Shown here piece by piece: positions 59,668-63,275 of a stretch of 64,000 nucleotides of DNA (positions are counted from its first letter, which is position 1; each line of letters starts with the position of its first letter). The notes below the pieces were generated by a model. That model was not told the origin of the DNA. It was given only the letters and a program-made list of their open reading frames with translations, and did not search any database. This DNA is from Bartonella tribocorum (GTDB taxonomy: Bacteria; Pseudomonadota; Alphaproteobacteria; Rhizobiales; Rhizobiaceae). Made by a program: the position numbers and the translations under genes. The stretch covers positions 62,001-126,000 of the forward strand of contig NZ_NJGE01000004.1 in the NCBI RefSeq assembly GCF_002777915.1, written 5' to 3'.

Positions 59668-60954
59668 TTAATGTTTTTTTTGCAACACAGATAAAAAGAA
59701 ACCATCTGTTTGTGTTGTTGCAGGTGATAAAGTCAGTCCATAATTTGAAAAAACTGGTTGTACAGAAGAAAAATTAAAATGTTTCTGCCAAAGTGCCTGT
59801 ATATCTATTGGATAAAAATGAGAATGCTGTTGCAGGAAATGGGAAATTTGTTCCTCATTTTCATCTGCAAAAAGGGAACAGGTAATATAGACTAAGCGCC
59901 CTTTTGGCTTAAGATAATCTATTGCTTCATTCAAAATAGCCCTCTGTTCTGTTTGGCGTTGTTTTACCTGCTCTAATGTTAACCGCCATTTCGCATCTGG
60001 ACGACGACGCCATGTTCCTGTCCCACTACAGGGTGCATCTAAAAGAACTCTATCCATCTGGCCTATTAATGGTTTCAATTCTTCTTTTTGTACTCGTGTT
60101 TGTACATTACGAACACCAGCGCGTCGAAGACGATCAAAAATAGGCGCTAGACGTGCTTTATCGGAATCATAAGCATAAATTTGCCCACGATTATTCATAT
60201 CGGCAGCTAAAGCTAATGTTTTGCCACCAGCACCTGCACAATAATCTAATACCTGTATGCTTTCTTGCGCTTCCACAAGATGAGCAACAATTTGAGATCC
60301 TAAATCCTGTATTTCAAAGTGCCCTTTTTGAAAAGCCGGTTCCACTTGAACATTGGGATGGCGATCAAATTTTTCAATCGGAGCAACTCTTAGAGCTTGC
60401 TGAAACCATGGCAAAGATTGAAGTTTGGTTTTTGCTAACTCTTTCAACACCTTTTCTGATGTTGCCTTTAGGCTATTTACCCGTAGATCTAAAGAAGGAC
60501 GCGTTGCTAACGCAGCAGCCTCAGTGACCCAATTATCACCAAATAAAGGACAAAGATGTGCTTGACACCATTGAGGAATATCACCACGAATATAGTCTGG
60601 TGCATCCACTAATTGCCGCCTTTGCCACGATTTGCGCTGTTTATCCTCTAATAACTGCGGAGCAAATCGGTCTCCTTCTAACGCATCGTCAATTTGCTCC
60701 AGCGTCATTTTTCCAGTATCTAATAAGGTAGCAAAAACAATATCCCGAATATCATCACTCTCCATACGCCATTGTAAAGAATATCGTCGTCTTAAAACAT
60801 CATAAACGATTGTACCAATGGCTGCACGATCACCTGCTCCCGCAAAACGATGAGAAAGCCCCCAATCCTTTAAAGCTTCTCCTACGGGGCGATGCCTCAT
60901 TTCTATCTCTTTGAGAACATCTATTGCTGCCTGCAAACGCCCACCTAATCGCAT
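59668..60954 (-). CDS. rsmB: RsmB-type 16S rRNA (cytosine-C5) methyltransferase
   Basis: SAM-dependent rRNA m5C methyltransferase, 428 residues. An N-terminal NusB-like region (about 1-130) precedes the Nop2/Sun domain. SAM motif is YCAGAGGKTLALAADM near 235; the catalytic cysteines are in LLDAPCSGTGTWRRRPD near 300 and ITCSLFADENEEQ near 355. GGGAGA precedes the ATG. It lies upstream of guaA on the same strand, as in related Rhizobiales. Confidence 0.9.
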   Translation of the reverse strand: MRLGGRLQAAIDVLKEIEMRHRPVGEALKDWGLSHRFAGAGDRAAIGTIVYDVLRRRYSLQWRMESDDIRDIVFATLLDTGKMTLEQIDDALEGDRFAPQLLEDKQRKSWQRRQLVDAPDYIRGDIPQWCQAHLCPLFGDNWVTEAAALATRPSLDLRVNSLKATSEKVLKELAKTKLQSLPWFQQALRVAPIEKFDRHPNVQVEPAFQKGHFEIQDLGSQIVAHLVEAQESIQVLDYCAGAGGKTLALAADMNNRGQIYAYDSDKARLAPIFDRLRRAGVRNVQTRVQKEELKPLIGQMDRVLLDAPCSGTGTWRRRPDAKWRLTLEQVKQRQTEQRAILNEAIDYLKPKGRLVYITCSLFADENEEQISHFLQQHSHFYPIDIQALWQKHFNFSSVQPVFSNYGLTLSPATTQTDGFFLSVLQKKH

Positions 60955-61399
60955 TCATTTCTCCCATTAAAATAATAAAACTCTAAACCGTTTTAAAAAT
61001 AATATTATCTTCTTATTGCCAATGAAACCTATTCAAAACTCTCAAAAATTTACATTCACTTTTAAAATGATCTGAGCATACTTTTTTATAAGATCCAATT
61101 GAGTGTATCTAGATTTTTCTTTTCATCTTTTCCCCATTGGCTTTTATCCTTCTCAAAGGTATACAATCCTCTTATGCTAAAAGATATGCTGCCATCTATA
61201 AAAAAAAGAAAAATAAAATCTCTTCCATCTTAAAAGGATTATCTTTCTTAAAAAAAGAGAAAAAGCTTCTAACAAGATGAGACAAGCACATCTTATTCTC
61301 AACAAAAAATTAACTTTTTAGAAAATGCTTGGAACCACTATTTGGTATGACCGTTTTTAATAGACTGGCAACTGCCAGACAATTTAAAAGGAGAAAATA
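60955..61399. other. 445-bp gap between rsmB and the 48-residue ORF
   Basis: AT-rich divergent gap. Its right end holds the GGAAC-N16-CGTT promoter (61331-61355) and the hairpin CTGGC-AACT-GCCAG (61365-61378 region) in the leader of the small ORF. The remaining 350 bp show no frame with a ribosome binding site and no recognised RNA. Confidence 0.5.
61331..61355 (+). promoter_or_regulatory. EcfG-type general stress promoter
   Basis: GGAAC (61331-61335), exactly 16 bp, CGTT (61352-61355). This is the alphaproteobacterial EcfG/RpoE general-stress consensus (GGAAC-N16/17-CGTT). The 48-residue ORF starts 45 bp later behind AAGGAG. Regulation is inferred from the motif only. Confidence 0.65.
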
Positions 61400-61546
61400 A
61401 TGACTTATAATAATGGAAAAACAACTTCATCTAAAAGCCGTCATAATACAATACCCTCAAACAATGGAAAGAAATCCGTCCAAAGTGATCAGACAAACAC
61501 TCGCCAACGTACGCCAAATACAGGACGCAAGACAACAAAAAGTTAA
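61400..61546 (+). CDS. 48-residue basic hypothetical protein, putative stress-induced
   Basis: Small ORF with a strong ribosome binding site (AAAAGGAGAAAATA before the ATG), a stress-type promoter and its own terminator, which together argue for a real gene. The product is rich in Asn, Thr, Ser, Lys and Arg (MTYNNGKTTSSKSRHN at the start, TGRKTTKS at the end), has no Cys, Trp, Leu or Phe, and is probably disordered and strongly basic. It could bind nucleic acid, like other small general-stress proteins, but no family is recognised. Confidence 0.65.
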   Translation: MTYNNGKTTSSKSRHNTIPSNNGKKSVQSDQTNTRQRTPNTGRKTTKS

Positions 61547-61588
61547 TTCTAGCTTTATATAGTTTACTTCACACAAGTCTTGACTGAG

Positions 61589-61624
61589 AGAATTAGAGCT
61601 TTAGCCTCTAATTCTTTCTCTTTT
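61589..61624 (+). terminator. terminator after the 48-residue ORF (bidirectional with guaB)
   Basis: Perfect 10-bp stem AGAATTAGAG (61589-61598) / CTCTAATTCT (61606-61615), 7-base loop, then TTCTCTTTT. It lies 43 bp after the small ORF and about 100 bp after the end of guaB on the other strand. Confidence 0.75.
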
Positions 61625-61724
61625 GGATTATTACACCAAATCATAGACAAAAAAAGAACCATCTCTCTTCCTTGTTCTCGGAAGATTTTACATCTATGCA
61701 ATATGACGCAAAGCTCTTATTCCT

Positions 61725-63275
<1,551 letters not shown>

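Follow-up and report, generated by a model that had tools for sequence, protein, structure and literature searches.

Proteins carrying the KGG motif are widespread stress proteins, and GsiB and Con-10 are counted among the KGG-repeat (PF10685) proteins. Hydrophilins are defined by a glycine content above 6% together with high hydrophilicity. In Salmonella, the expression of KGG proteins is driven by RpoS, the proteins are disordered, and a SEN1538 deletion reduces survival under stress, as described in passages of two reports (PMC7161692, PMC5437024), the second of which also names YciG as a hydrophilin. For Rhizobium etli, an excerpt of a further report gives the EcfG motif as GGAAC-N16-CGTT (PMC3892343).

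The locus described here lies in a stretch of 64,000 nucleotides from the Bartonella tribocorum genome (2.19 Mb), hereafter the window, and encodes a small basic protein. We liken its gene to those of the enterobacterial KGG proteins (YciG, YmdF, and STM14_1829/SEN1538), which are small, hydrophilic, disordered, and driven by a general-stress sigma factor (RpoS), as far as the excerpted reports describe them. The B. tribocorum gene differs from these in having an EcfG-type promoter in place of an RpoS one, and it shares the exact GGAAC-N16-CGTT pattern 5′ of the start codon with the EcfG (PhyR-NepR-EcfG) regulon of alphaproteobacteria; NepR is encoded in the same genome. Its product lacks the KGG motif, whereas two orthologues carry it, one in a congeneric genome that falls outside the main clade (G003) and one in another genus of the same family (G152). 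Unlike the KGG-repeat proteins, both of these forms have a single motif without tandem repeats. The gene is of a known kind, a KGG stress protein with a promoter of the general-stress type, and the new part is a Bartonella variant without the defining motif. Overall, we regard it as rather probable that the unit is a monocistronic gene of an eroded KGG type, predicted to be EcfG-driven, whose product probably serves as a hydrophilin-like protectant.

Organization of the transcription unit

The unit spans 61331–61618 on the plus strand of the window, in the intergenic region between rsmB and guaB. Its parts and neighbours are as follows, with conservation given for 46 aligned rows.

59668–60954, minus strand: neighbouring gene, which we take from its translation to be rsmB, encoding an rsmB-type (Sun/Fmu) rRNA methyltransferase
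61310–61329, plus strand: A/T-rich stretch just 5′ of the −35 element, with columns conserved in 30–45 of the 46 rows
61331–61335, plus strand: −35 element GGAAC of an EcfG-type promoter, identical in 46/46 rows
61352–61355, plus strand: −10 element CGTT, 16 nt past the −35 element, identical in 46/46 rows
61365–61378, plus strand: leader hairpin CTGGC-AACT-GCCAG, from folding, where the transcript is expected to begin
61387–61393, plus strand: ribosome-binding site AAAGGAG (AAGGAG at 61388–61393), identical in 46/46 rows
61400–61546, plus strand: 48-codon ORF for a basic hydrophilic small protein of eroded KGG type, from translation, homologues, and selection
61586–61618, plus strand: terminator-like hairpin with a T-rich stretch after it, from folding and covariation
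61725–63269, minus strand: convergent neighbour, presumably guaB (IMP dehydrogenase) from its translation; the ORF as listed starts at an upstream GTG

The preliminary description had proposed a compact unit of promoter, leader hairpin, AAGGAG, 48-codon ORF, and terminator, and each of these parts was found at its claimed position. The terminator hairpin likewise stood, but not its claimed 10-bp stem, for which we counted 13 pairs with G-U pairs included. The A/T-rich stretch is possibly a UP-like element. An overlapping 49-aa ORF (61413–61562) was rejected as the true product, as its frame contains stop codons beyond codon 4 in 13 of the 46 rows. A second terminator-like hairpin is present on the plus strand at 61666–61685, near the 3′ end of guaB. 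Among plasmid sequences, no DNA similar to the unit was found.

Promoter and general stress system

An exact GGAAC-N16-CGTT was present 5′ of the start codon in all 48 rows (46 genomes, two present twice) and in all 31 loci of named Bartonella genomes; several of these loci belong to genomes already counted and are thus not independent. The assignment of the promoter to the EcfG consensus in the preliminary description is borne out, since the pattern is the same as the EcfG motif in the excerpt on Rhizobium etli cited above. The mean column identity over the 46 aligned rows, with gaps scored as differences, was 78% upstream, 90% in the promoter spacer, and 89% in the coding region, versus 58% in the 3′ untranslated stretch that precedes the terminator. 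By itself, the promoter pattern is no proof, because it was not enriched in the B. tribocorum genome (14 exact matches versus 29 for the reversed pattern); chance is ruled out by the conservation of the unit across genomes of the genus.

Elsewhere in the same genome, intergenic exact GGAAC-N16-CGTT sites were also observed ahead of two small genes (loci L151 and L152 on contigs C6 and C7), one encoding a protein of 91 aa that contains a hydrophobic segment, the other a YtxH/DUF883-like protein with scores below the curated cut-offs. Small genes of this sort recur in stress regulons, and these two are candidate further members of the one here. By comparison, among nine loci with KGG genes elsewhere in the family, outside Bartonella and G152, eight had a scorable start, and an exact EcfG site lay within 100 nt in two of these eight.

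NepR, the EcfG anti-sigma factor, was found in 60 of 62 genomes. In the B. tribocorum genome, nepR is surrounded by a cluster of genes that we take to be ecfG, phyR, and a kinase gene from their likeness to these (L250). There was no exact GGAAC-N16-CGTT between phyR and nepR at this locus, so that self-regulation is not evident. In B. quintana, phyR was raised fourfold at louse temperature, according to part of one report (PMC3595295), and B. henselae stayed culturable after air-drying, according to part of another (PMC10383451). Such air-drying survival may be a use for the gene, the B. henselae observation having no link to the gene itself.

Reading frame and protein

The homologous frames were 47–50 codons long (two start codons reassigned), and every alignment gap was in frame. 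In the lineage of B. tribocorum (34 sequences, pooled), pN/pS was 0.218 (95% codon bootstrap 0.119–0.356), and the three codon positions were unequally variable (chi-square p = 0.0015). In the other lineage (11 sequences, pooled), pN/pS was 0.602 (95% codon bootstrap 0.436–0.846), and the constraint appears weak because the codon positions varied almost equally (chi-square p = 0.89). The protein is thus clearly constrained in the former lineage and loosely in the latter, in agreement with the earlier expectation of a frame conserved in Bartonella with synonymous bias. Within the lineage of B. tribocorum, pN was 0.040 in the first half of the frame versus 0.077 in the second, and pS was 0.199 versus 0.311. 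A frameshift close to the end of the frame was seen in B. melophagi K-2C (L206), the copies in its relatives being intact.

Across the 46 sequences, the predicted pI was 9.9–11.6, the net charge +6 to +11, and the GRAVY score −1.13 to −2.27. Like the hydrophilins, the B. tribocorum protein is strongly hydrophilic (GRAVY −1.89), with 6.2% glycine, although only 24 of the 46 homologues exceed 6%. A structure model built with 16 close sequences had a mean pLDDT of 63, no residue at or above 70, and a pTM of 0.12, and DSSP yielded nothing; the 48-residue protein is probably disordered, a low-confidence model being weak evidence of this.

Relationship to KGG proteins

The B. tribocorum protein itself matched no Pfam or NCBIfam model, and it fell below the PF10685 gathering cut-off of 20.4 bits, as did the five other motif-less homologues scanned. 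The G003 protein (MVTHSNGKNAASK...GNFANDRQRASEAGRKGGKNS) was identified as KGG (PF10685) at 36 bits, and the G152 gene product passed the same model at 25.1 bits. The earlier statement that the protein matches no family accordingly applies to the B. tribocorum sequence taken singly and fails for the gene, whose orthologues in G003 and G152 belong to a described family. No solved structure was found for relatives of the KGG form (E up to 1).

In G152, the gene has the same two neighbours as in the window, rsmB and guaB, and its unit includes GGAAC-N16-CGTT, AAGGAG, and a strong terminator hairpin; a leader stem can be made out in the sequence, but its fold was no better than that of shuffles. 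The G003 gene is flanked by guaB on one side and, presumably, a LysR-type gene on the other; it agrees in promoter spacing and in ribosome-binding site, and its leader hairpin was beaten by 2 of 200 shuffles. The B. tribocorum protein aligned over its length with both orthologues (z = 7.8 each), no alignment among 5000 shuffles scoring as high, and the last 21–22 residues alone aligned with G003 at z = 6.6, again with 0 of 5000 shuffles as high. Adjacency to guaB, the same promoter and layout, and whole-length similarity were therefore all found, as expected under common descent with a KGG protein. Because the B. tribocorum copy aligns lengthwise with the KGG-bearing orthologues and the motif is absent from it, its gene is, on these comparisons, that of an eroded KGG-type (YciG-like) stress protein and not a gene without relatives.

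At the genome level, PF10685 was searched in 29 genomes (12 with motif-less copies, 15 without the gene, G003, and G152) and matched only in G003 and G152; the other motif losses were read from the alignment. The control genomes (E. coli, B. subtilis, Caulobacter, and Deinobacterium) were positive, and KGG genes were found in 7 of 121 genomes of the family at large, G152 included. In a guaB tree of 66 rows built by a quick method, the 45 motif-less copies fell in one clade of 48 members (support 94) together with three gene-less genomes; outside it lay G003, G152, and the remaining 12 genomes without the gene. The placement of G152 is unsure because of the quick tree and its very long branch. 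The KGG form would be the older state, judging from the position of G003 and G152 outside this clade and the wide spread of KGG, and the simplest reading is a single loss of the motif along the branch leading to the main Bartonella clade.

In the open-licence literature, no relevant paper combining Bartonella and KGG was found by title and abstract opening, and KGG and EcfG occurred jointly in no paper among the matches listed.

Distribution of the gene

The gene was found in 46 of the 61 genomes of the genus by protein search (E ≤ 1), and the identical 46 were retrieved by DNA search (E ≤ 0.001). The weakest protein matches were those of G003 (E = 0.2; DNA match 7e-7) and G030 (E = 0.006). 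A profile of the B. tribocorum protein retrieved 31 loci in named genomes, all of them Bartonella. In the 15 remaining genomes of the genus, there was no GGAAC-N15-18-CGTT within approximately 1.5 kb after guaB. In the guaB tree, these comprised twelve large genomes in one clade, which we take to be the bee-gut species, and three small genomes in another; two gene losses would be the simplest reading on this tree, and the well supported branches, taken by themselves, require one change of this state. NepR was found in 13 of the 15, the exceptions being G018 (85% complete) and G032; hence, losing the stress system does not by itself account for where the gene is missing.

A search of the guaB locus gave matches in 145 of 151 genomes, of which the best 30 loci were compared, two being Bartonella. 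No such unit was present after guaB in the 28 loci from other genera of the family, among the matches listed; stray look-alike promoter sites without such an ORF were seen after guaB in L222, L226, and L233. The conservation that had been proposed as a check thus held within Bartonella (46 of 61 genomes) but, save for G152, not beyond the genus in the 28 loci read.

Across much of the second Bartonella lineage, the interval from rsmB to the small ORF was seen to contain a universal stress protein gene (PF00582) on the same strand. It was located as follows.

L083, 366–1253: PF00582 gene
L205, 2885–3748: PF00582 gene
L206, 2899–3756: PF00582 gene
L240, L241, L243, L246, and L247: PF00582 gene also present

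PF00582 had no match in L239, L248, L249, or positions 60900–61800 of the window, and there was a weak match in L191 (E = 0.26).

Hairpins and folding of the transcript

The leader folded at −7.9 kcal/mol (z = −3.0) and the terminator at −15.8 kcal/mol (z = −2.9), each beaten by 1 of 200 shuffles. The terminator stem covaries: 94.1% of 442 cells were paired and 17 were changed on both sides, versus a mean of 6.6 in shuffled controls (0 of 500 reaching 17) and 6 in the best slid version. This count used 34 rows, hand-picked to thin near copies and not by result, without L039, L042, L043, L044, L053, L058, L060, L061, L067, L071, L072, L077, and G152. In the leader stem, 94.6% of 148 cells were paired, and 6 of the 37 distinct rows had a broken outer pair; across the rows counted there were no changes on both sides, and the stem did no better than column shuffles (40 rows in total, without L040, L042, L044, L058, L067, L068, and L072). 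In L067 and L072, outside this count, the outer pair was exchanged in a compensated manner, as judged by eye. The ribosome-binding site was unpaired when the leader was folded alone. The transcript as a whole folded with a z of −2.8, and in its minimum-energy structure the tail of the terminator pairs with the ribosome-binding site; the covariation tests covered the two end hairpins, and the coding part may hold further structure.

Discussion

Under the reading that we favour, a small KGG-derived stress gene, stress would activate PhyR, and EcfG (RpoE in Bartonella) would be freed from NepR. RNA polymerase with EcfG would then initiate at approximately 61361–61365 and produce a monocistronic mRNA of approximately 260 nt that ends at its own terminator. 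The 5′ hairpin may guard the 5′ end of this mRNA and may stabilise it, and translation from the strong ribosome-binding site is predicted to yield a very basic, disordered protein of 48 residues. This protein would descend from a KGG-motif stress protein of the YciG/YmdF/GsiB kind, the glycine-rich motif being eroded in the B. tribocorum copy and 44 sampled relatives and the charge, hydrophilicity, length, and expression signals being retained. It probably shields macromolecules under stress in the manner of a hydrophilin, by acting in bulk.

The same erosion could instead mean that a once-useful KGG protein has been lost stepwise in Bartonella, with the promoter kept merely through short divergence. 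The lost motif fits such decay, as do the relaxed selection in one lineage (pN/pS 0.60), the frameshift in B. melophagi K-2C, and the 15 of 61 genomes in which the gene was not found. However, pN/pS was 0.22 in the 34-sequence lineage, with no bootstrap value reaching 1, and the −35 element, the −10 element, and the ribosome-binding site are invariant over 46 genomes when the 3′ untranslated stretch has drifted to 58% identity; we therefore consider decay unlikely. Selection on the frame and the ribosome-binding site intact in every aligned row also argue against the idea that the transcript is mainly a regulatory or dual-function RNA to which the ORF is secondary. The short predicted transcript, its structured ends, and the z of its whole fold would suit an RNA of that kind, but no Rfam family matched in 60900–61800 (E up to 1), and we judge this improbable.

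The motif-less protein might also have taken on a new role as a cationic peptide that binds nucleic acids or membranes, in keeping with its net charge and high pI in all 46 sequences. Its first half is the least changed in the lineage of B. tribocorum, where, as noted above, pS is lower as well. Nevertheless, the KGG-bearing orthologues in G003 and G152 are equally basic, with a pI of 11.1 in both, so that the charge is not new, and neither Pfam nor NCBIfam yielded a binding domain in the B. tribocorum protein; this role strikes us as very doubtful. Returning to the KGG-derived stress gene, a more specific version of it, in which the motif was stripped on the stem of the main clade, selection was kept in the lineage of B. 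tribocorum, and the protein took up a Bartonella-specific stress role in the arthropod or in dried faeces, is offered tentatively, as something conceivable and short of probable.

If that version were true, Bartonella would provide a natural case revealing on which part of a KGG protein its activity depends. A lineage in which the gene, the stress promoter, and the charge are kept and the motif is not sets the motif apart from everything else in the protein, which makes the role of the motif testable. The ORF is also an example of a small gene that could escape automatic annotation, and its promoter is a candidate marker for the general stress response of Bartonella.
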